A model generated the notes under the pieces. That model did no database searches. It was not told the origin of the DNA and was given only the letters and a program-made list of their open reading frames with translations. From Rhizobium sp. (GTDB lineage Bacteria > Pseudomonadota > Gammaproteobacteria > Burkholderiales > Thiobacillaceae), in assembly GCA_019459285.1 (NCBI GenBank), contig JAIBEL010000065.1, forward strand, positions 1-64,000: a stretch of DNA of 64,000 bases, written 5' to 3'. The stretch's first letter is position 1. Every line of letters begins with the position of its first letter. Of the stretch, positions 42,231 through 52,939 are shown one piece after another. The position numbers and the translations under genes are program-made.

Positions 42231-42443
42231 CTAATCGTCGAAGCAGTAGAAGTCCGCCTTGGTCACGCCGCAGTCGGGGCAGCTCCAGTCGTCGGGGATG
42301 GCTTCGTAGCGGGTGCCCGGTGCCAGGCCGTGGTCGGGGTCGCCGAGCGCTTCGTCATAGACGTAGTCGCAGACGGCGCAAGTCCATTTGCGGAAGGCGG
42401 GGACGGATTCGGGGGCAGAGACAGCAGCGGAGAGATTCATCAT
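42231..42443 (-). CDS. Rubredoxin
   Basis: A 70-residue iron protein for one-electron transfer. It has the two CxxC knuckles, CAVC (residues 22-25) and CPDC (55-58), around the [19 protein letters not shown] core. An N-terminal extension of about 18 residues precedes the fold. Its ATG overlaps the DUF302 stop, so it is the last member of the osmC-like / acyl-CoA-dehydrogenase-like / DUF302 unit, perhaps delivering electrons to the flavoprotein. Confidence 0.93.
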
Positions 42444-42829
42444 GGTAATTTCCACGGATCGAGCGTGGCCAGCAGTTGATTGAAGATGGCGTCGAGTTCG
42501 CTGCCCAGCACATCGAGCTGCGGGTTGACGTAGGGTTTGAAGACATCGATGGCCGGGCGGTACGCGACCCACGTGCGGCCGTCGGCCTCGTACAGATGGA
42601 TGCGTAGCGGGATATCGATGCCCGCCGCCTTTTCCGCCGCCCAGACCTTGGCGGCATAGTCGGGGCGAAACACCTCGAGGATCTGGTCGGCCGGCACCTC
42701 GATCCCCTTTTTTGCGCAATTGGCCTGGCCATTGGCGTGGGCGACCAGACCCATCGGGTAGGCGGCGATGGCGGCGATCAGTTTCCCTGCGGCTTCGTCC
42801 ACAGAGAGCGATACGGCAAAACGGGTCAT
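42440..42829 (-). CDS. DUF302-domain protein
   Basis: A 129-residue cytoplasmic protein matching DUF302 ([41 protein letters not shown]). The family is widespread in sulfur bacteria and often lies near redox and sulfur-metabolism genes; the function is unknown. It overlaps the acyl-CoA-dehydrogenase-like gene upstream and rubredoxin downstream by four bases each, so the three are translated together. Confidence 0.85.
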
Positions 42830-43995
42830 GCGACCTCTCTTTCAGGCTGCGCCAGTGCGCAGGCGTGGCTGTCGAACTCATGCAGCTCCTTGCGCAGGTG
42901 CTTGATCGCGGGGGTGACAATGGCGATGAAGTAGGCCTCGCGCAATCTGCGCTGTGCCGCATTATTCGACAAATAGCCCTTGGCGCCCAGATGCAGCATC
43001 GCCGCGCTGGCGGCCTTCAGGCTCAACTCGCTGCCGGCGAGCCGCAATTGCAGCGTTTCCTTGACGTGCGGCGCGCTGCCGTCGCGGTCGATGCGTTCGG
43101 CCAGATCATAAGTCGCGGCGCGCGCGGCGTCGAGCTCGGCTTGCAAGGCGTCGGCCTGTACGTCGAGGAAGCGGTTGATGTGGCCGAACTGCCTGTCGGC
43201 CCGCTGCATCATGACGACGCAGGCGTCGACGAGGCCGAGGCCCATGCCCATCTGCAGCAGGATGAAGGCCGATTTGGTGCGGTCGCGGAAAGCGTCGAAT
43301 TCGTGCGGGTGGCAGACCACCTGCGCGTCGGGCAGGAATACGTCGCGGAACTGGCAGGCGAAGGTGTTGGTGCCTTCCATGCCGATGAAGTGCGCGTTCT
43401 GCGCCAGCGTGAGGCCGGGCGTGCTGCCGTGCAGCAGGCCGATCACCAGCCCCGGCGCGTCGGCCAGCGAGGCGCCCATGTGGAAATGATGCTCGGGCCC
43501 GATATTCGACACCCAGGGCAGCACGCCGTTGACGCGGTAGCCCCCCTCGACGCGCTGCGCCTTGAGACGGGTTTCCTCGATGCCCACGCAGGACTTCATG
43601 GTGTTCGACTGCGCGGTGCCGCCCAATACCTCGCCGCGTGCCATCTTCGGCAGCATGTCGGCGGCGAGTGCGGGGTTGGTGCCATTCAGCACGTACCACT
43701 GCAGCGCGTATTGCGCCCACAGCAGGAAGCCGGTGGACACGCATTGCTTGGACGCTTCCTCGACCACCTGGATGGCGTGTTTCAGGCCGCGTGCGCTGCC
43801 GCCGTGCGAGGCCGGCGTGAGGCTGCCCAGACCGCCGAGCGTGCCGAGCTTGCGCAGAAAGATGTCGGGATAAAGGCCCTTCAGGTCGATGTCGACCACC
43901 TTGGGCGCGAGCTCTTCGGCGATGAGTTCGGACAAGCCCGGCAGGATTTCGCAGGCTTCATCCGGAAGAGGGGGGGCGAGGGCGACGGCGGGCAT
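42826..43995 (-). CDS. Acyl-CoA-dehydrogenase-family flavoprotein
   Basis: A 389-residue flavoprotein of the acyl-CoA dehydrogenase superfamily: helical N-terminal domain, beta domain ([24 protein letters not shown]) and C-terminal helical bundle. The substitution pattern does not show a clear catalytic glutamate. Relatives in this superfamily (SfnB, DszC types) act as flavin-dependent monooxygenases on sulfur compounds. AGGAG precedes the ATG. In an osmC-like / DUF302 / rubredoxin unit under a sigma-54-like promoter, an oxidative role on an organosulfur or nitrogen compound is possible but unproven. Confidence 0.8.
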
Positions 43996-44025: not shown

Positions 44026-44568
44026 TCAGGCCAGCTCGACGCTGACGTTCACCGGATTGCGCAGCGTGTTGGCCACCGGCGACCAGGCGTTGGAATGCGC
44101 GACCAGGTCCTTTAGCTCGGCTTCGCTGGCGTCGCCTTCCAGGTGCACCTTGACGCGTACGTCGGTGAAACCGAGTTTCTTCAGCGGATCGAGGTCGCCC
44201 ACGCCCCATACCGCGGTCACGTTGATGTCGCCTTCGAGTTCGAGTTCGAGGCGGGTCAGCGAAATGCCGCGTGCCACGGCGTTGGCGTGCAGGCCGACCG
44301 ACAGACAGGAACCCAGCGTGGCCAGCACGGCTTCGGACGGATTCGGCGCAGTGTCGTCGCCCAGCAGGTGCGGTGGCTCGTCGATCACGTGCGCCGGCAG
44401 GTTGCGCACGTAGGTGAGATTGCGGAACTTGCTTTCGCACACGGTCTTCGCTTTCAGCGTGACGACCGATTGCGGGTTGGCCTTGCCTTTGGCGGACAGC
44501 GCGGCGAGGCCTTCGCCGGAAATGGGTTCGAGGATGGCCTGGGTTTTCAGGGCAACGACTTCAGACAT
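44026..44568 (-). CDS. OsmC-family peroxiredoxin-like protein
   Basis: A 180-residue OsmC/Ohr-fold protein. The core has NPSEAVLATLGSCLSVGLHANA with the conserved cysteine, and another cysteine lies in AKTVCESKFR near residue 44. OsmC/Ohr proteins reduce organic hydroperoxides; YhfA-like members have unclear roles. AGGAG precedes the ATG. First gene of a unit with the acyl-CoA-dehydrogenase-like gene 30 bases downstream, and preceded by a strong sigma-54 promoter match. Confidence 0.87.
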   Translation of the reverse strand: MSEVVALKTQAILEPISGEGLAALSAKGKANPQSVVTLKAKTVCESKFRNLTYVRNLPAHVIDEPPHLLGDDTAPNPSEAVLATLGSCLSVGLHANAVARGISLTRLELELEGDINVTAVWGVGDLDPLKKLGFTDVRVKVHLEGDASEAELKDLVAHSNAWSPVANTLRNPVNVSVELA

Positions 44569-44616
44569 GGCATGACTCCTTGGTTGAGAGGATCGAGGAA
44601 CCGACATGCCCTGTAT

Positions 44617-44632
44617 TGCGATTCCTGTGCCA
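44617..44632 (-). promoter_or_regulatory. Sigma-54 (-24/-12) promoter of the osmC-like unit
   Basis: The minus strand reads TGGCACAGGAATCGCA: perfect TGGCAC, GG-N10-GC spacing and TCGCA for TTGCA, one mismatch from consensus. It is 49 bases before the osmC-like ATG, and a sigma-54 activator gene lies immediately upstream. Confidence 0.7.
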
Positions 44633-44689
44633 GCTCCGAAAAACGCGGTAAACCGTTGTTTGTTATTCAGATATTCCTTTCCGTCCGGT

Positions 44690-44732
44690 TGCCGCCAATT
44701 GTCTGCGCTAACAAATTGTCAACCATTGTCAG
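44690..44732. promoter_or_regulatory. Triple ATTGTC repeats, possible activator-binding sites
   Basis: ATTGTC occurs three times, in CAATTGTCTG, AAATTGTCAAC and CATTGTCAG, 60-100 bases upstream of the osmC-like sigma-54 promoter, where enhancer sites are expected. A TTGTCAAC copy also lies at about 46329 upstream of cynA. Confidence 0.4.
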
Positions 44733-46312
44733 CTTGCCTCGGCTGCTTCGAGCCGCTGCAGGCGGTAGTTCAACTGGCGCAGGGTCAGCCCCAGCATCTG
44801 GGCTGCGCGCGACTTGTTGCCATGGGCGTGTGCCAGCGCCTGCGCGATCTGCTGACGATCGTGCGACTGCGCAGGGAGATAGGGGCGCACGGTGGCAGCT
44901 GCAGGCGGATTCGCCGGTACGCTGCCGAGCGATCTGCCGTTCTCCGGCGTGGCTTCGCTGTGGATCACGCGCTCGACCTCCTGTGCGGGAATCGTCGCGC
45001 TTTCGGCCAGCAGCACCAGGCGTTCCAGCACGTTGCGCAATTGCCGGATATTGCCCGGCCAGTGGTAGCCCGCCAGCTTCTCCATCGCCTCCGGCGTCAG
45101 GCCGACGTTGCGCTGATAACTCTGACTGATGAGGTTGAGCTGGTGGCGTACCAGCGGGCGGATGTCCTCGGGACGTTCGCGCAGTGCGGGCAGGCGGATC
45201 GGAATGATGTTGAGGCGGTAATACAGGTCGAGACGGAAGCGCCCCGCGCTCACCTGCTGCTGCAGGTCGAGGTTGGTAGCGGCGACGATGCGCACGTCGA
45301 TCGGCGTTTCGCGGCGGCCGCCGACGCGCTGCAGCGATTTTCCTGCAACACGCGCAGCAGTTTCACCTGCATCGCCAGCGGCAACTCGCCGATCTCGTCG
45401 AGGAAGAGCGTGCCACCGTTCGCCTGCTCGAAGTAACCGGCGCGCGCCGTGACCGCACCGGTGAATGCGCCTTTCTCGTAGCCGAACAATTCCGACTCGA
45501 ACAGGTTTTCCGGAATCGCGCCGCAGTTCACCTTGACGAAAGGCTGGTCGCGCCGCGGGCTCGACAGATGCAGCGCGCGCGCGAACAGCTCCTTGCCGGT
45601 TCCCGATTCGCCCAGCAGTAGCACCGTCACATCGGTGGACGATACCTGTTCGATCTGGTGCAGCGCATGACGCAGGGCGGGCGATTCGCCGACGATGCCG
45701 AGCGTGGCCGGCTGCGGCGTGCCGCGTTCGAGCGCCCATTTGAGCTCGCGGTTCTCGTGCTCCAGGCGTGCGGTCTGCTCCGCCACGCGATCGTTCAGTT
45801 TGAGGATCTGCGTGATCAGCGTGGCGATGATTTCGAGGATGCGCAGATCGTCGGTCAGCGCCCGCGCGCGTCCGCGGATGCGGTGCACGCCCAGCAGACC
45901 CAGGACCTCGCCATCGCTGCGCAGCGGCAGCGCAATGAAGCTGACCGTTTCGTTCGGCAGGTGCGAACGGTCCACCGCGCGCGAGGTAATGCGGATCGTT
46001 GTCGATGTCCTGCACGATCACCGGCTCGCCGCTTTGCAGGGCGCGCCCGGTGACGCCGACCCCGGGGTGATAGACGCCGCGTTTGATTTCCGTGGCCGTC
46101 AGGCCGTAGGCATAACGGATCGCATAGTCGCCGCCGGGCTGCCGCAACACCACGCGCCCGCGGTTGAGCCCGAGAAACTCCGAGACCAGATGCAGCATTT
46201 CGCGGATCACCGGTCCGGGCTCCAGGCTTTTTCCCACCAGGCGTGCCGATTCGCGAATGACCAGCATTTCCTCGTTCTGTAGATGTTCGGCTGGCAATGC
46301 AGGGGATGTCAT
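44729..46312 (-). pseudogene. Sigma-54-dependent activator (GAF-AAA+-Fis), frameshifted twice
   Basis: A NifA-like activator that in this sequence needs two frame changes. The intact design is a GAF sensor (residues 1-170), AAA+ domain and C-terminal Fis helix-turn-helix (NKSRAAQMLGLTLRQLNYRL). The middle of the protein, including Walker A GESGTGKE, the GAFTGA sigma-54 contact loop and LFLDEIGEL, lies in a second frame between about 45984 and 45340. The first shift is at a CG repeat (45976-45983) and the second at T4 (45338-45341), where [15 protein letters not shown] needs one more base. The net change restores frame. The frame without correction is open but encodes nonsense in the middle. 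Sequencing error or recent inactivation are both possible. Confidence 0.85.
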
Positions 46313-46435
46313 GGCGATTCCTCAAAACATTTTGTCAACACTGTGTAATCAAGAATCGGACCAGTATCGAAGGCGGTTCCGAATATTCCTGGAGAAGTCT
46401 TGGATAAACAGCTTCTTAGTGTCGATCGTGTGGGC

Positions 46436-46451
46436 TGGCACGCTTCCTGAT
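46436..46451 (+). promoter_or_regulatory. Candidate sigma-54 promoter of the cyn operon
   Basis: TGGCACG (46436-46442) is a perfect -24 element; GG-N10 spacing leads to GA where GC is expected at -12. Start codon is 190 bases downstream, so a long leader is implied. Confidence 0.45.
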
Positions 46452-46553
46452 AAGACTTCAGGTGTCAACACGACGCATCGCCCGGCCCGGTTCCTCCGGG
46501 CCCGCACAATCAGGTGTTAGAGCGGTCGGCGTGCTGCAAACCGGAATCGTGGC

Positions 46554-46595
46554 CATGCACCAGACCGGAGCGCAGTGCGGCGATGCTGGTGCATG
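46554..46595 (+). promoter_or_regulatory. Inverted repeat in the cynA leader
   Basis: CATGCACCAG (46554-46563) and CTGGTGCATG (46586-46595) are perfect complementary arms enclosing 22 bases, about 45 bases before cynA. It could be an RNA hairpin or a protein-binding site. Confidence 0.5.
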
Positions 46596-46640
46596 CGGAC
46601 GTGTTGTGAAGCCAAGTTTTTCAACCGATGGGAGCGCTTA

Positions 46641-47999
46641 ATGTCCGGTTTTGATAATCCGTTTGACCCCGATACCCCACTGCACCGTGCAGGATGCAGC
46701 TGCGGCCGCCACCACAGCCAGGCCGACCACGAGGCCGACATGCAGAACGAGGATGCGCGCGTGTCGCGCGTGGTCGAATCGGCGGTGATGCGTGGTCTGT
46801 TCCCCGACGACCAGTTGCGCCGCAACTTCCTGCGCGCGGTCGGCGCCGGCACGGCGATGGCAGCGATCTCGACGCTGTTCCCGATGGGCGCGGCCAAGGC
46901 GCTGGCCGCCGAGAAGGGCAAGCTCGAGAAGACCGACCTCAAGATCGGCTTCATCCCGATCACCTGCGCCACGCCCATCATCATGGCGGGGCCGATGGGC
47001 TTTTATGCACGTGAAGGGCTCAACGTCAGTCTGCAGAAAACCGCCGGCTGGGCAGTGATCCGCGACAAGGTACAGAACAAGGAATACGACGCCTCGCACA
47101 TGCTCTCCCCGATGCCACTGGCGATGTCGCTCGGACTGGGTTCGGCCAAGCAGGCAGTCGACGTGGCGTCGATCCAGAACATCAACGGCCAGGCCATCAC
47201 CCTGGCCCTCAAGCACAAGGACAAGATGAACCCCAAGGACTGGAAAGGCCTGAAGTTCGGCCTGCCGTTCGACTATTCGATCCACAACCTGCTGTTGCGC
47301 TACTACCTCGCCGAAGCCGGCCTCGATCCCGACAAGGACGTCGAGCTGCGCATGATGCCGCCGCCCGACATGGTGGCCAACCTGCGCGCCGGCAACATCG
47401 ACGGCTTCCTCGGCCCCGAGCCGTTCAACCAGCGCGCGGTGTATGAAGAAGTCGGCTTCATCCATACCCTGTCGCGCGACCTGTGGGACGGCCACCCGTG
47501 CTGCGCCTTCGGCGTGCAGGAAGGCTTCTACAAGCAGTATCCCAACACCTATGCCGCGCTGTTCCGCGCGATTGCCAGCGCCACCGACTACGCGCACAAG
47601 CCGGAGAACCGCAAGGCCATCATCGAGGCGATCGCGCCGCCGAATTACCTCAACCAGCCGATCCCGGTGCTGGAACAGGTCATGACCGGCCGCTTCGCCG
47701 ACGGACTCGGCAAGGTGCGGAACGTGCCCGACCGCGTCGACTTCGATCCATTCCCGTGGCAGTCGATGGCGGTGTGGATCCTCACGCAGCTGAAGCGCTG
47801 GAACTACATCAAGGGCGACATCAACTACCAGGCGGTCGCTGAGGACGTGTTCCGTGCCACCGACGCGCGCGCCCGCATGGCCGAGCTCGGCATGAAGCCG
47901 CCGAAGTCGAACTACGCCAAGCACACCATCATGGGCAAGGTGTTCGACCCCGCGAAGCCTGCCGAGTACCTCAACTCCTTCGCCATCAAACGCACATGA
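46641..47999 (+). CDS. cynA: Cyanate/nitrate-type ABC transporter substrate-binding protein
   Basis: A 452-residue NrtA/CynA-family binding protein for periplasmic capture of cyanate (assigned from the cyanase gene in the operon). An unusual 60-residue N-terminal extension with C19-S-C21-GRHH precedes a twin-arginine signal (RRNFLRAV, Arg60-Arg61), so it is probably exported folded. The mature domain starts after ALAAEKGK. The extension's Cys/His cluster may bind a metal. ATG at 46641 follows GGGAG. Its stop overlaps the permease ATG (ATGA). Nitrate is the main alternative ligand. Confidence 0.87.
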   Translation: MSGFDNPFDPDTPLHRAGCSCGRHHSQADHEADMQNEDARVSRVVESAVMRGLFPDDQLRRNFLRAVGAGTAMAAISTLFPMGAAKALAAEKGKLEKTDLKIGFIPITCATPIIMAGPMGFYAREGLNVSLQKTAGWAVIRDKVQNKEYDASHMLSPMPLAMSLGLGSAKQAVDVASIQNINGQAITLALKHKDKMNPKDWKGLKFGLPFDYSIHNLLLRYYLAEAGLDPDKDVELRMMPPPDMVANLRAGNIDGFLGPEPFNQRAVYEEVGFIHTLSRDLWDGHPCCAFGVQEGFYKQYPNTYAALFRAIASATDYAHKPENRKAIIEAIAPPNYLNQPIPVLEQVMTGRFADGLGKVRNVPDRVDFDPFPWQSMAVWILTQLKRWNYIKGDINYQAVAEDVFRATDARARMAELGMKPPKSNYAKHTIMGKVFDPAKPAEYLNSFAIKRT

Positions 48000-48847
48000 A
48001 GACGAAACTCTCGCTCAGCCAGAAGGCCGGCCTGCTGTCGCTCGGGCTGCTTGCGGTGATCCTGCTGGTCTGGCAGCTGGCGACGCTGCCGGAAGCCAAG
48101 GTCGTCGCGGCCGACGTCGACCCCGAGTATGCCGCGCTGATGGGTGGCGGCGCGGCCAGGGCGGCGTCGAGCTTCCCCACCCCGGCGGCGATGGCGCAGA
48201 CGCTGTGGGACAAGCTGTCGCACCCGTTCTACGACAACGGCCCCAATGACAAGGGCATCGGCATCCAGCTCGCCTATTCGCTGGCGCGCGTGCTCGGCGG
48301 CTTCTTCCTCGCCGCTGTGGTGGCGATCCCGCTCGGCTTCGCCATCGGCAACTCGCGGATGGTCTACCAGGCGATCAACCCCTACGTGCAACTGCTGAAG
48401 CCGATTTCGCCGCTGGCGTGGATGCCGCTCGCCCTCTACACCATCAAGGACGCGTCGGCCTCGGCCATCTTCGTCATCTTCATCTGCTCGCTGTGGCCGA
48501 TGCTGATCAATACCGCGCACGGCGTCGCCAATGTGCGCAAAGACTGGCTCGACGTCTCGCGCACGCTGGAGGTCAATCCGCTGCGCAAGGCATTCCGGGT
48601 GATTCTTCCAGCTGCGGCGCCGACGATCCTGACCGGCATGCGCATCTCCATGGGCATCGCCTGGCTGGTCATCGTCGCCGCCGAAATGCTGGTCGGCGGT
48701 ACGGGCATCGGCTACTTCGTGTGGAACGAGTGGAACAACCTGTCGCTCACCAACGTACTGTTCGCCATCCTCATGATCGGCGTCGTCGGCATGGCGCTCG
48801 ACAGTGTCTTCGGCGTGCTGGGCAAGCGCGTCGCGTATCAGGAGTAA
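47996..48847 (+). CDS. cynB: Cyanate/nitrate-type ABC transporter permease
   Basis: A 283-residue inner-membrane permease of the NitT/TauT family. It has one early helix (residues 10-30) and about five more, and the EAA-type loop region (DVSRTLEVNPLRKAFRVILPAAAPTILTGMRIS, in short pieces) that contacts the ATPase. Overlap of four bases with cynA and three-base gap to the ATPase indicate one operon. Confidence 0.9.
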   Translation: MKTKLSLSQKAGLLSLGLLAVILLVWQLATLPEAKVVAADVDPEYAALMGGGAARAASSFPTPAAMAQTLWDKLSHPFYDNGPNDKGIGIQLAYSLARVLGGFFLAAVVAIPLGFAIGNSRMVYQAINPYVQLLKPISPLAWMPLALYTIKDASASAIFVIFICSLWPMLINTAHGVANVRKDWLDVSRTLEVNPLRKAFRVILPAAAPTILTGMRISMGIAWLVIVAAEMLVGGTGIGYFVWNEWNNLSLTNVLFAILMIGVVGMALDSVFGVLGKRVAYQE

Positions 48848-48850
48848 CGC

Positions 48851-49786
48851 ATGTCAGCCATCCATCCCTTTCTGCAGGTCGAAAACCTGGCGCGCGCCTA
48901 CCCCAGCCCCACCGGGGGCGACGCCATCACCGTGTTCGACCACGTCAATTTCCGCATCCACAAGGGCGAGTTCGTCTGCGTCACCGGCCACTCCGGCTGC
49001 GGCAAGTCGACTATCCTCAACATCCTCGCCGGCCTCGACAGCGCCACGACAGGAAACGTCTTCATGGACGGCCGCGAAGTCGCCGGCCCCAGCCTCGACC
49101 GCGGCGTCATCTTCCAGGGCCATGCGCTGATGCCGTGGCTGACGGTACAGGAGAACGTCGAATTCGCTGTGAAATCGCGCTGGCCTTCGCGGAACAAGCA
49201 GAAAATCCGCGCCCACGCCATGCGCTACATCGAACTGGTGGGCCTGAAGGGCGCCGAGCACAAGAAGCCGTCGCAGCTCTCTGGCGGCATGAAGCAGCGC
49301 GTCGGCATCGCGCGCGCCTTTTCCATCGAGCCGAAGATGCTGCTGATGGACGAACCCTTCGGCGCGTTGGACGCCTTGACGCGCGGCGTCATCCAGGACG
49401 AATTGCTGAAAATCTGCGCCGAGACGCAGCAGACCGTGTTCATGATCACGCACGACGTCGACGAAGCCATCCTGCTGTCCGACAGGATCATGCTGATGTC
49501 GAACGGTCCGCATGCGCGCATCGCCGAGATCGTCAACAACACCCTGCCGCGTCCGCGCGAGCGCAGCGCCATCCACAAGCAAGTGCACTACTACCCGATC
49601 CGCAACCACCTGGTCGATTTCCTGGTGAGCCGGTCGAAGCAGTTCGGCAGCCTGCGCGACGCGCCCGACGCCCCCAGTTCGCCCACCGTGTTCGATCCGG
49701 CCGACCTCATCGAGTCCGACGTCGAGCCGGTCGTCGCCCACACGCCGCCCGTCGGCAAGCCTCACATCCACCTCGTCAACGCCTAA
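48851..49786 (+). CDS. cynD: Cyanate/nitrate-type ABC transporter ATP-binding protein
   Basis: A 311-residue ATPase of the NitT/TauT type. Walker A is GHSGCGKST, the signature LSGGMKQR, Walker B LLMDEPFGALD, and the H-loop ITHDVDEA. About 60 residues beyond the usual domain form a C-terminal extension. It lies between the permease gene and cyanase, eight bases before cynS. Confidence 0.92.
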   Translation: MSAIHPFLQVENLARAYPSPTGGDAITVFDHVNFRIHKGEFVCVTGHSGCGKSTILNILAGLDSATTGNVFMDGREVAGPSLDRGVIFQGHALMPWLTVQENVEFAVKSRWPSRNKQKIRAHAMRYIELVGLKGAEHKKPSQLSGGMKQRVGIARAFSIEPKMLLMDEPFGALDALTRGVIQDELLKICAETQQTVFMITHDVDEAILLSDRIMLMSNGPHARIAEIVNNTLPRPRERSAIHKQVHYYPIRNHLVDFLVSRSKQFGSLRDAPDAPSSPTVFDPADLIESDVEPVVAHTPPVGKPHIHLVNA

Positions 49787-49794
49787 GGACCATC

Positions 49795-50238
49795 ATGACC
49801 CGCACCGAAGTCACCGACCTCATCCTCGCCGCCAAGCACAAGAAAGGCCTCAAATGGGCTGACATCGCCAAGAAAGTCGGCCAGAGCAAAGAATGGACAA
49901 CCGCCGCCCTGCTGGGCCAGATGACGCTCGACAAGAAACAGGCCACCACCGTCGGCAAGCTGCTCGGCCTGCCGCCCGAAGCAATCGACCAGCTGCAGAT
50001 GGTGCCGTACAAGGGCAGCCTGCCTTCCGCGGTGCCGACCGACCCGCTGATCTACCGCTTCTATGAACTGATCATGGTCTACGGCATCACGATCAAGTCG
50101 CTGATCCACGAGGAATTCGGCGACGGCATCATGAGCGCGATCGATTTCTCGATGGATATTTCGCGCGTGCCGGATCCCAAAGGGGATCGGGTGAAGATCG
50201 TGCTGAACGGGAAGTTCCTGCCGTACAAGATGTATTGA
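49795..50238 (+). CDS. cynS: Cyanate hydratase (cyanase)
   Basis: A 147-residue enzyme that converts cyanate plus bicarbonate to ammonia and CO2. The N-terminal half is a helix-turn-helix-like fold and the C-terminal half forms the decameric active site. Arg88, Glu91 and Ser114 align with the E. coli catalytic residues Arg96, Glu99 and Ser122 at a constant offset of eight. In a sulfur oxidiser cyanate may come from thiocyanate or carbamoyl phosphate. It fixes the meaning of the upstream transporter. Confidence 0.96.
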   Translation: MTRTEVTDLILAAKHKKGLKWADIAKKVGQSKEWTTAALLGQMTLDKKQATTVGKLLGLPPEAIDQLQMVPYKGSLPSAVPTDPLIYRFYELIMVYGITIKSLIHEEFGDGIMSAIDFSMDISRVPDPKGDRVKIVLNGKFLPYKMY

Positions 50239-50242
50239 CCCC

Positions 50243-52939
50243 TTAGTTGCGCCGCAGCCAGGCCTCGAACTCATCCGGCGGCAGCGGTTTTCCGGCGTAG
50301 AGATACCCTTGCGCGTAATCGCACCCTGCCGCGGCCAGCAGGGCGCGCTGCCCGGCGGTTTCCACCCCTTCCGCGATGACCTTCAGCCCCAGTTCGTGCG
50401 CCATGACGATGATCGCCCTCGAGAGGGCCATGTCGTTCGGGTCCGTTTCGATGTCGCTCACGAACGACCGGTCGATCTTCAGGTAATCGATGGGAAACTG
50501 CTTGAGATAGGACAGCGTGGAATAGCCCGTGCCGAAATCGTCGATGGCGATCTGGATGCCGGCGTCGCGAAACGCCAGTAATTGCTCGGTGACGTCGGCA
50601 TGCGCATTGAGCAGCAGGTTTTCCGTGATCTCGATCGTAAGATTCGTGCCCGGCAGTCCGATGTCCTGCAGATGCCGTAGCCATGCCCGGGTGTGCGGGC
50701 GTCCTTCCGCCCGGAACTGCACGGGCGACATGTTGATGCTGATCTGGAAATCGTCACCGAATTCATGGCGCCATGCCTGCGCACGCCGTGCCGATTCCAT
50801 GAGGACCCATTCGCCGATTTCGTTGATGAGTCCCGTTTCTTCGGCGAGCGGAATGAAATCCATCGGATTGACCAGTCCGCGCGTGGGGTGCTGCCATCGC
50901 AGCAGCGCTTCGGCCTTGCGGGTGCGGCCGGTGGACAGCTCGACGATCGGTTGGAAATAGGCGACGAATTGCCTGGCGGCGACCGCCTCGCGCAGGTCGC
51001 GGGACAGTTTCAGGCGAGTCTGGGCGGCTACCTGCAGCGACGCCGTGAAATAGAAAAAGCGATTGCGCCCGTGTTTTTTGGCGGCATACATGGCCTGGTC
51101 GGCATGCTTCAGCAGGGTGTCGATATCGTCGGCGTCACCCGGATACACGGTGATGCCGATACTGGCCGTGACATAGGCCACCTCGTCGCCAAGGCGAAAA
51201 GGCTCGGCCATGCGTCCGATGATTTTCTGGGCGATGTCCTCGATATGGGTACGATCCGACAGGTCGGCCAGGATGACCGTGAACTCGTCGCCGCCCAGGC
51301 GCGCGACCGTGTCGGTATCGCGAATGCAACTGCGGATGCGCCGGGCCGCCTCCTGCAGCAGGATATCGCCCACGTCGTGCCCCAGCGTGTCGTTGACCTC
51401 TTTGAACTCGTCGAGATCGACCAGCAGGAGCGCCAGGAAAAAATCGGCACGCTGGGACTTGATGATTTCCTGGCCCAGGCGGTCGAGGAACAGCCGCCGG
51501 TTGGGCAGTTGCGTCAGCGGATCGAAGTTGGCCTGGCGCTGGATGGTTTCCTCCGCCTGCCTGCGCTCGCTGACATCGAGGTAGGTTCCGATCAGCCGCG
51601 TGGGAACACGAGCCGAATCGCGGGTGACCACCATGCCATGCGTCTGGACCCATTTCCAGCTGCCGTCCTTGCAGCGTTTGCGATGTTCGTGGGCGAAAGT
51701 GTCGCGGCTGCCGTCAAGCAGCGGCTGCCGTGCGGTCATCAGACTGGGCAGGTCGTCCGGGTGGACACGCTGCAGCCAGTCGTCCATGCGAGGCCCGATC
51801 TCATCGTCGGCAAATCCCAGCATGGCCTTGCTGCGGCTTGAAAGCAGAATCCGGTTGGCCGGAATGTCCAGGTCCCATACACCGGCCCCCGTGCTGTCCA
51901 GCGCGAAGCGCCAGCGTTCCTCCACATCGCGCAACCTGGCGTTGATCTCCGCGGTCTCCCGTCTGGAGAGGACAAGCTTGCGCACGAGCGGCGTCACCAG
52001 TCCGTACAGCAGGAGAACGCCGGTCACGACCAGGATGGCCAGCAGCGGAATGACGATTTGGAGTTGTTGTCTGATGGGGCCGAACAGTTCGGCTCGATCG
52101 ATCTTCAGCACCATGCCGGGCCCCAGGCGGCCCAATGGCGTGTAGGCGGCGACCACGTTCTCGTGGCGATAATCCTGCGTGAATACGGTGCCGGTTTCCC
52201 CAGCCAGCGCATGGCTCATGGGCAGCGGCTGCCCGCCGATCGTGCGGGCCAGGCGTGCGAACACATGTTGCGACCGGGTGAGCGGGAAACATTGCATGTC
52301 CTTTTCCAGCGGGGCGCACAGGGCGAGTTCCACGGTTTTCCCCAGTACCCCAGCCTCGGCGATGGCATCCGTCAGCCGCGGCAGGGTGGATTCGGTCCGC
52401 GCCGTGCCGATGAGGTGGCCCGCTTCGTCCATGACCTCACGGTCGACCCGCAGGATCAATTGCCCATCCCACAGCAGATGTGACTTGGCTTGCGTATTGA
52501 GGGGCACGCTGAGCGCCGGGCTTTTCGACGGATGGCCTGCATGCACGATCGCCTGGCCATGGCTGTCATGAAAGGAGACGCTGGTGAATCCGATCGGCAG
52601 GAAGGAGTCCGCGATCTGCTGCAAGGCCAGCCGGCTGGCGTCATTGCCCGGCTTCGCCTGCAGCAGCTGCAGGTTGTGGATCACGAAAGGGCGGGTGGAA
52701 ACGGCCAGCGCATTGGTCACGCCGGCGCTGATCTCGCTTTCGAACAGGCGGCGGTCGTTCTGCAGGGCGGTGGCCAAGCTTTTGACGAGGACGGATTCCG
52801 CTTGTCTCTGCATCAAGGCATACACGGCGAGGCCGGCGGCGAGCGTCAGGACAATCAGGATGAGGCCGCCGATGAGGCCGATGCGGTGACTTTCGAATTG
52901 CCGATCCAAATACGTTCCTCCCGATCTCGCGTCGCGCAT
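50243..52939 (-). CDS. Membrane PAS-GGDEF-EAL c-di-GMP protein
   Basis: An 898-residue inner-membrane signalling protein. Two membrane segments (about residues 20-42 and 295-318) enclose a periplasmic sensor. A PAS/PAC domain (about 335-460), GGDEF domain (LGGDEFTVIL near 570, with RDTD as the RxxD inhibitory site) and EAL domain (KAEALLRW near 690; DDFGTGYSTL) follow. All key motifs are intact, so it could both make and degrade c-di-GMP. It stops four bases from the convergent cynS stop, with no terminator between. Confidence 0.92.
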   Translation of the reverse strand: MRDARSGGTYLDRQFESHRIGLIGGLILIVLTLAAGLAVYALMQRQAESVLVKSLATALQNDRRLFESEISAGVTNALAVSTRPFVIHNLQLLQAKPGNDASRLALQQIADSFLPIGFTSVSFHDSHGQAIVHAGHPSKSPALSVPLNTQAKSHLLWDGQLILRVDREVMDEAGHLIGTARTESTLPRLTDAIAEAGVLGKTVELALCAPLEKDMQCFPLTRSQHVFARLARTIGGQPLPMSHALAGETGTVFTQDYRHENVVAAYTPLGRLGPGMVLKIDRAELFGPIRQQLQIVIPLLAILVVTGVLLLYGLVTPLVRKLVLSRRETAEINARLRDVEERWRFALDSTGAGVWDLDIPANRILLSSRSKAMLGFADDEIGPRMDDWLQRVHPDDLPSLMTARQPLLDGSRDTFAHEHRKRCKDGSWKWVQTHGMVVTRDSARVPTRLIGTYLDVSERRQAEETIQRQANFDPLTQLPNRRLFLDRLGQEIIKSQRADFFLALLLVDLDEFKEVNDTLGHDVGDILLQEAARRIRSCIRDTDTVARLGGDEFTVILADLSDRTHIEDIAQKIIGRMAEPFRLGDEVAYVTASIGITVYPGDADDIDTLLKHADQAMYAAKKHGRNRFFYFTASLQVAAQTRLKLSRDLREAVAARQFVAYFQPIVELSTGRTRKAEALLRWQHPTRGLVNPMDFIPLAEETGLINEIGEWVLMESARRAQAWRHEFGDDFQISINMSPVQFRAEGRPHTRAWLRHLQDIGLPGTNLTIEITENLLLNAHADVTEQLLAFRDAGIQIAIDDFGTGYSTLSYLKQFPIDYLKIDRSFVSDIETDPNDMALSRAIIVMAHELGLKVIAEGVETAGQRALLAAAGCDYAQGYLYAGKPLPPDEFEAWLRRN

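Follow-up and report, generated by a model that had tools for sequence, protein, structure and literature searches.

A sigma-54 activator gene between cynABDS and an OsmC/acyl-CoA-dehydrogenase-like unit: gene context for a possible thiocyanate-to-cyanate system in Thiobacillaceae

The DNA considered here, called the window, is a stretch of 64,000 nucleotides (nt), positions 1-64,000 of contig JAIBEL010000065.1 in assembly GCA_019459285.1. The record is filed as Rhizobium sp. and placed by GTDB in the Burkholderiales, family Thiobacillaceae, with close relatives that include Thiobacillus, Hydrogenophilales, Parasulfuritortus and Gallionellaceae; in our numbering the window lies on contig C31 of genome G000 (3.38 Mb). 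It carries a sigma-54 activator gene lying between the cyanate genes cynABD-cynS and a second set of genes, the "unit", that encodes an OsmC-family protein, an acyl-CoA-dehydrogenase-like protein (ACAD), a DUF302 protein and a rubredoxin. The unit is discussed as a candidate source of cyanate from thiocyanate. A preliminary description of the locus had proposed this layout, and gene calls together with profile matches confirm it. The range given there, 44569-50238, covers the activator, both promoters and the cyn genes, but the oxidative unit itself lies outside it.

All genes of the unit are on the minus strand. The gene for the OsmC-family protein (44026-44568, 180 residues, assigned from Pfam PF02566 and an alignment), proposed as the sulfur-carrying partner, is next to that for ACAD (42826-43995, 389 residues), the proposed core enzyme. 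Beyond it are the genes for the DUF302 protein (42440-42829, 129 residues; PF03625, 45.3 bits) and rubredoxin (42231-42443, 70 residues; PF00301, 80 bits), both passing the Pfam cut-off. The activator gene (44729-46312) is also on the minus strand. On the plus strand are cynA, encoding an NMT1-type substrate-binding protein (46641-47999, PF13379), the permease gene cynB (47996-48847, TIGR01183, cut-off passed), the ATPase gene cynD (48851-49786, TIGR01184, cut-off passed) and the cyanase gene cynS (49795-50238; TIGR00673, 183.8 bits versus a cut-off of 113.3). By eye, the CynA N-terminus (46641-46900) has a cysteine-rich GCSCGRHH ahead of a signal resembling those for twin-arginine translocation, RRNFLRAVG.

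Co-occurrence of the unit with cyanase in relatives, whose absence would have counted against the preliminary description, is strong in each of the three draws searched (117 genomes from the family, 369 from the class and 398 from the phylum). In the family, ACAD is found in 26 genomes, cyanase in 48 and both in 23, so that cyanase is present in 23/26 genomes with ACAD versus 25/91 without it. The three family genomes with ACAD and no cyanase are 70-87% complete. The two genes are on the same contig and no more than 10 kb apart in 17 of the 26; cyanase is on another contig than ACAD in G032, G050, G057, G063 and G064, and G017 has an ACAD remnant and only a distant type of cyanase. In the class draw, where ACAD was detected in 14 genomes, cyanase in 50 and both in 13, the comparison is 13/14 versus 37/355 (Fisher P 1.5e-11). 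In the phylum draw OsmC was detected in 14 genomes, and 11/12 of those new to the count have cyanase. ScnB of thiocyanate hydrolase accompanies ACAD in 9/26 family genomes and occurs in 12/91 without ACAD (P 0.019). Since related genomes are not independent and kinship was left uncorrected, these P values are guides only. The dependence is one-sided: the unit is nearly always accompanied by cyanase in the genome, while cyanase often occurs without the unit (for example, 13 family genomes have a close-type CynS and no ACAD). This pattern fits a unit that acts upstream of cyanase.

The gene neighborhoods, counted over the stretches fetched, have a constant core of OsmC and ACAD, often with an importer nearby. 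Among the 13 non-self loci of the class, OsmC adjoins ACAD in every case, one of them split across contigs (L081/L126). Rubredoxin, rubredoxin reductase and the activator are each present in 12 of these, cyanase in 9, an importer of the scn type described below in 8, DUF302 in 7 and rhodanese in 4. The phylum draw supplied 12 stretches from 11 genomes (G683 left out), and ACAD is beside OsmC in 11, the exception being L114; a sulfurtransferase (rhodanese) follows ACAD in 7 of those 11, and rubredoxin reductase occurs with rubredoxin in L115 and L116. Treating every OsmC relative as a marker of the unit was rejected, as L114, L131 and L132 carry OsmC but, over the stretch fetched, no ACAD.

Units are known from alpha-, beta- and gammaproteobacteria, some on chromosomes and others on plasmids, and a more distant OsmC-ACAD pair, accompanied by a cyn-like importer, is found in the actinomycete Corynebacterium occultum. 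Marinobacter shengliensis pMAD49a has the order importer, sigma-54 regulator, OsmC, ACAD, rubredoxin/reductase, cynS. An Acetobacter ascendens plasmid has OsmC, ACAD, rubredoxin/reductase, a CmpA/NrtA-type importer and cynS, and a sigma-54 regulator as well; both of these plasmids are predicted to be conjugative. On a Caballeronia sp. SBC1 plasmid, where the genes are unannotated in the record, matches give activator, OsmC, ACAD, rubredoxin/reductase, CynABD and CynS. The alphaproteobacterial plasmids of Rhodobacteraceae SC52 and Pseudosulfitobacter carry importer, OsmC, ACAD and sulfurtransferase, and Methylocystis iwaonis has importer, OsmC and ACAD.

The unit has also been lost. In Thiobacillus thioparus DSM 505 (L038, 8001-8895) only the ACAD C-terminus, DUF302 and rubredoxin are left beside the gene that usually flanks cynS; the 5' part of the ACAD gene is missing from the locus, and cyn, activator and osmC were lost together. 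At L047 DUF302 adjoins cynABDS directly, and activator, OsmC and ACAD are all missing; at L048 the gene adjoining cynABDS is yqiA-like. These arrangements indicate that the unit can be lost while cyn remains. Several other neighbors deserve mention. A GGDEF/EAL-like gene (by eye; 50243-52939) runs on the strand opposite cynS, its end falling 4 bases beyond that of cynS, and such a gene also adjoins cynS in several relatives (L016, L017, L028, L049). Carbonic anhydrase is encoded beside cynS in two related genomes (L078, 12207-13124; L079, 12033-12848), which fits the bicarbonate need of cyanase. On a plasmid of Rhizobium sp. AB2/73 (L131, 3378-8034) a related OsmC and DUF302 are part of a nitrile-hydratase-type cluster with CbtA/CbtB and aquaporin genes. 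A Neisseria gonorrhoeae record of 2.17 Mb filed as a plasmid (L129, 8001-9359) holds an ACAD homologue (42% identity) and, after it, a rubredoxin match; the stretch fetched there gave no match to OsmC.

Many units adjoin a NitT/TauT-type importer distinct from CynABD (the binding proteins are about 27% identical). When this binding protein was searched in the 369 class genomes at E <=1e-60, it was found at 18 places in 17 genomes. Eight of these are in OsmC-ACAD units (L073-L077, L083, L084, L126) and eight in thiocyanate hydrolase (scn) clusters (L055, L118, L119, L121-L125). One such scn cluster, with its own NitT/TauT-type importer and a second cyanase, is on contig C27 of the window's genome (L055, 7000-26000). 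Its ScnC passes TIGR03887, thiocyanate hydrolase gamma (398.8 versus a cut-off of 291.45 bits), its importer shares 56% identity with the unit type but 26% with CynA, and the locus has no OsmC or ACAD match. That units have an importer in common with thiocyanate hydrolase clusters lends independent weight to thiocyanate. L117 (8868-10109) has a lone scn-type binding protein gene with open reading frames resembling adenosine 5'-phosphosulfate reductase nearby (by eye); over the stretch fetched, scn, OsmC and ACAD gave no match.

In the ACAD tree the CynABD units and those with the scn-type importer are interleaved within clades. L078-L080 (Cyn) group with L083 (95/91) inside a clade of L073, L077 and L083, and L100 (scn-type) is in the clade of L082, L102, L103, L115 and L116 (98/100), its inner place being less sure (86/92). 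Most simply read, this interleaving means that one and the same enzyme can be supplied by either importer. A scn-type importer as part of every unit was considered and rejected; it is absent from the window's branch, which has CynABD.

ACAD has the family domains PF02771 (54.5 bits) and PF00441 (27.8 bits), reaches no NCBIfam cut-off, and by sequence is closest in the PDB to isovaleryl-CoA dehydrogenases (E 6e-23). A predicted model of moderate quality (mean predicted local distance difference test score, pLDDT, 64.5), used only for fold support, gives acyl-CoA dehydrogenase fold matches in the PDB. Acyl-CoA dehydrogenases carry their catalytic Glu at one of two places, and the window ACAD has it at neither. 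The usual IYEGT position is Thr361, with Thr in 34/35 aligned ACADs (35 after omission of rows L129 and L133); at columns 240-250 the same 35 are free of acidic residues. Ordinary beta-oxidation was set aside, there being no recognised partner genes and no catalytic Glu. Cys85 of ACAD, found in 35/35, was dropped as a catalytic sulfur acceptor because a common acyl-CoA dehydrogenase likewise has Cys there.

In OsmC, Cys88 is conserved in 28/28 aligned unit members and Ser163 in 28/28; the latter is part of an SPV motif at the second-Cys place, where we take CPV to be usual. Four rows (L114, L131, L132, L133) were left out of this count, and all four show the Cys88 and Ser163 residues alike. 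The AlphaFold model of OsmC (mean pLDDT 46.7) was not used. With a single conserved Cys and Ser in the second place, the two-cysteine peroxidase mechanism of OsmC/Ohr proteins, as given in part of one report (PMC5157978), should be unavailable. As for the accessory proteins, the SC52 rhodanese is closest to 3-mercaptopyruvate sulfurtransferase, below cut-off (99.6 versus 250 bits), the unit rubredoxin reductase is NorW-like, also below cut-off (274.9 versus 392 bits), and in L073 rubredoxin is fused to a reductase that has a rubredoxin-binding domain. The window has no rubredoxin reductase beside the unit. A homologue (50% identity) on contig C34 of the same genome may stand in for it.

The preliminary description also reported sigma-54 type promoters at 44617-44632 (minus strand, before osmC, TGGCACAGGAATCGCA) and at 46436-46451 (plus strand, before cynA, a partial one, TGGCACGCTTCCTGAT), and TTGTC elements near both units. 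Comparison with relatives upholds these claims. Each promoter has 2 mismatches against TGGCACGNNNNTTGCW, a match that by itself is no evidence, because the whole window has 113 matches with <=3 mismatches versus 135 expected from shuffles, fewer than chance; the plain count of consensus sites was accordingly dropped as uninformative. Conservation, not the consensus match, is the evidence. In 17 activator-osmC intervals (the window and 16 of 23 relative loci, those having both intervals) the best site before osmC is of the sigma-54 type, TGGCAC[AG]NNNNT[TC]GC[AT], in all 17 (P <=0.0034, mononucleotide shuffle); its distance to the ATG is 47-51 nt in 13 intervals, 56-59 nt in another 3 and 86 nt in L033. 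The cynA site, TGGCACG[CT]TT[CT]CTGA, is found in the window and in 13/13 Thiobacillus-type relatives examined; its distance is 186-193 nt in the window and 12/13 of these and 170 nt in L036 (P 0.003-0.10). L029, L033 and L030 have a better, consensus-like sigma-54 site 34-43 nt from cynA. In a second set of 33 loci, 23 have a sigma-54 site (P <=0.02) before osmC. For the scn-type importer operon of the unit the figure is 6/15 at P <=0.015, with a seventh at 0.055. A sigma-54 site before scnB, which would link both thiocyanate systems to one factor, was absent in 6/7 scn loci tested.

Upstream of the osmC promoter, at 71-98 nt, the window has three TTGTC elements (44699-44730) that are probable activator sites, and about 104 nt upstream of the cynA promoter it has the element TTGTCAACA (46332-46340). 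Across the 17 intervals TTGTC/GACAA is enriched before osmC (41 versus 6.4 expected, present in 17/17) and before cynA (25 versus 10.9 expected, present in 14/17). A pair of elements at about -98 and -88 from the osmC promoter occurs in 12/17 intervals, and an element of the TTGTC type at -104 to -106 from the cynA promoter in 8/17.

The activator has GAF, AAA+ (with GAFTGA), lid and Fis-type helix-turn-helix domains by Pfam. The preliminary description was correct that a gene of the sigma-54 activator type is present but overlooked two frame-breaking indels in it. Compared with L016, L017, L021 and L022, the window's gene is short of 2 nt at about 45984 and of 1 nt at about 45341, a net change of -3. 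Because of these indels the frame starting at 46312 lacks GAFTGA, and the AAA+ core, with both GESGTGKE (Walker A) and GAFTGA, is present only in a shifted, overlapping open reading frame on the minus strand (45250-45975). In 16/16 relatives examined the gene is intact, with both motifs in a single frame. The indels may be either sequencing error or a real lesion.

At close to an even chance, in our estimate, the unit is a cytoplasmic OsmC-ACAD system that takes the sulfur off thiocyanate, or off an S-C-N compound closely akin to it, and passes the resulting cyanate to cyanase. The sequences show the gene set, the wide co-occurrence with cyanase, the importer common (in other lineages) with thiocyanate hydrolase clusters, the conserved promoters and the missing canonical catalytic residues. 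The interleaved importers, the sulfurtransferase that follows ACAD in a number of loci and the rubredoxin-reductase fusion of L073 also speak for this reading. The idea that the second unit acts on a cyanate-related substrate, possibly thiocyanate, goes back to the preliminary description and is strengthened by the cyanase and importer evidence. The gene context supports thiocyanate; the chemistry, flavin binding by ACAD included, is inferred. In the proposed scheme the pseudohalide anion would enter through an ATP-binding cassette (ABC) importer, either CynABD or the scn type. The ACAD-like flavoprotein would oxidise the thiocyanate sulfur; its own electrons would come from NADH by way of rubredoxin reductase and rubredoxin, in units that have them. 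The single conserved Cys of OsmC would accept the sulfur as a mixed sulfide or persulfide as cyanate leaves, and the sulfur would then pass to a sulfurtransferase or to the sulfur oxidation of the cell. Cyanase then turns cyanate into ammonia and CO2, a step established for the CynS family. In the window the activator between the units would fire both sigma-54 type promoters, which have similar upstream elements.

A number of observations weigh against this proposal. We know of no enzyme with the acyl-CoA-dehydrogenase fold whose substrate is a small inorganic anion. A thiocyanate hydrolase is already encoded in the genome to which the window belongs. Thiocyanate as cargo of the scn-type importer is a deduction from the genes beside it, and 2 of the 18 importer places belong to neither kind of cluster (the lone binding protein of L117, and L120, near a contig end). 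In the family, 17 genomes have ACAD without detected scn, and in the 16 of these searched (G096 left out) there is no scn-type importer: 15 give nothing better than matches at 28-30% identity, and one gives no match. With that importer absent, the window's branch would need to import via CynABD or make the substrate inside the cell. Neither rubredoxin nor a sulfurtransferase occurs in the fetched stretch of L084, L112, L113, L130 and L133, and the electron path is therefore not constant. G440 and G654 have no detected cyanase. With regard to regulation, the cynA site is atypical in Thiobacillus, always with GA replacing the -12 GC, the window's activator is out of frame as read, and in 10 of the 33 loci no sigma-54 site was found before osmC (L082, L083, L084, L101, L102, L104, L105, L112, L113, L114). 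Among these, L082, L083 and L102 have an activator gene nearby, which argues against a strict match of activator and promoter.

Of the other explanations, the one that survives best is an organic relative as substrate, for example an organic thiocyanate, isothiocyanate, nitrile or sulfonate that releases cyanate or sulfide. The ACAD fold normally handles organic acyl substrates, the best NCBIfam match of the scn-type importer is to the aliphatic sulfonate family (below cut-off), and the nitrile-hydratase-type cluster of Rhizobium sp. AB2/73 includes the related OsmC and DUF302. However, the importer is common with scn clusters, and a scan of the recurring gene clusters, part of them unannotated, brought up no recognisable acyl-CoA synthetase or amidase. 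We regard such a substrate as unlikely.

Less probable again is that the unit encodes the cyanide monooxygenase postulated long ago, as a flavoprotein that receives electrons from rubredoxin and converts cyanide to cyanate, with the sulfurtransferase as a side route from cyanide to thiocyanate. Rubredoxin and its reductase, an adjacent cyanase, the rhodanese of several units and an ACAD fold that includes monooxygenases such as TdsC would all suit it. Yet some units have no rubredoxin or reductase, the other context of the importer is thiocyanate hydrolase, and many units carry ABC importers, for which hydrogen cyanide should have no need. Such a monooxygenase has been proposed but its existence not demonstrated, according to the available part of one source (PMC11049912), and for that reason the idea stays open.

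Protection from damage (oxidised thiols, peroxides, carbamoylation) that arises when cyanate or thiocyanate is consumed, with the unit off the pathway, seems slightly more doubtful still. OsmC proteins are known as peroxidases, and an induced OsmC-like protein has been interpreted in this way in the part of the report available (PMC5157978), but the second Cys of OsmC/Ohr is Ser throughout the aligned unit members, many units have their own importer, and cyanase loci often occur without the unit, as in the 13 family genomes noted above. Finally, two independently controlled operons that merely flank a regulator are very improbable: the atypical cynA promoter of Thiobacillus, the broken activator frame and the separate contigs of unit and cyanase in G057, G063 and G064 (family) would fit, but the co-occurrence spans families and differing gene orders.

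If the OsmC-ACAD unit does split thiocyanate, genomes without either of the two known systems could be thiocyanate users, and an inorganic substrate would be added to those of the ACAD fold. For work at the bench the clusters are clear targets, among them the two on the plasmids of M. shengliensis and A. ascendens. Reactors that remove thiocyanate often have Thiobacillus as a prominent member. Thiocyanate itself is a toxic product of mining and metallurgy, and in a thiocyanate-fed metatranscriptome cyanase mRNA was found while thiocyanate dehydrogenase mRNA was not, as stated in the available part of that study (PMC6172326).

The cyn half of the locus resembles a characterised system. In Pseudomonas pseudoalcaligenes CECT5344 the divergently encoded sigma-54 activator CynF is essential for cynABDS expression, and the window matches this cynFABDS arrangement in its divergent activator gene, its putative sigma-54 promoter upstream of cynA and the order cynABDS (PMC6627978, in part). 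The likeness is one of arrangement, the activator being a candidate orthologue of CynF, and the -12 element at cynA of the window is non-consensus. A sigma-54 activator divergent from cynABDS and needed for cyanate use is thus not new, being known in CECT5344; there, glutamate synthase genes are upstream of cynF, and the portion of the paper available makes no mention of an osmC/ACAD/DUF302/rubredoxin unit (PMC6627978). In the open-access literature searched, at the level of titles and the start of abstracts, the OsmC-ACAD-cyanase cluster was not described among the matches listed.

Other proteins of the ACAD fold, some with sulfur chemistry, are distant. The window ACAD is far below the family cut-offs for SfnB (TIGR04022, 22.6 versus 430.9 bits) and 3-sulfinopropanoyl-CoA desulfinase (64.9 versus 600), and TdsC resembles it in predicted fold only, at 16% identity.

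Two systems for thiocyanate use are known. The scnABC cluster of Thiobacillus thioparus DSM 505 (available part of PMC5328954) and L055 have the same importer subfamily as many units and a cyanase nearby. Unlike the OsmC-ACAD unit, scnABC encodes a nitrile-hydratase-type enzyme of the carbonyl sulfide pathway (PMC5328954, same part), and no ScnA, ScnB or ScnC match was found in the OsmC-ACAD loci among L072-L128. The thiocyanate dehydrogenase (TcDH) operons of Thioalkalivibrio, Guyparkeria and Thiohalobacter convert thiocyanate to cyanate, as is proposed here, and have a sigma-54 regulator in the operon. In contrast to the unit, TcDH is a periplasmic copper enzyme with copper-transport genes; both points are from the available parts of PMC5744179, PMC6504805 and PMC5328954, and the terms OsmC, acyl-CoA and rubredoxin are absent from the main text of these three papers. 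When the cyanate pathway was originally put forward, TcDH had yet to be described and the thiocyanate-splitting enzyme was an uncharacterised one (PMC5778177, in part). If the thiocyanate reading is true, OsmC-ACAD would supply the enzyme once postulated for that pathway in bacteria without TcDH. OsmC with an ACAD-fold flavoprotein would then be, as we tentatively suggest at rather less than even confidence, a new cytoplasmic desulfurising system from thiocyanate to cyanate that is both copper-free and cobalt-free, and a third biological route for thiocyanate.

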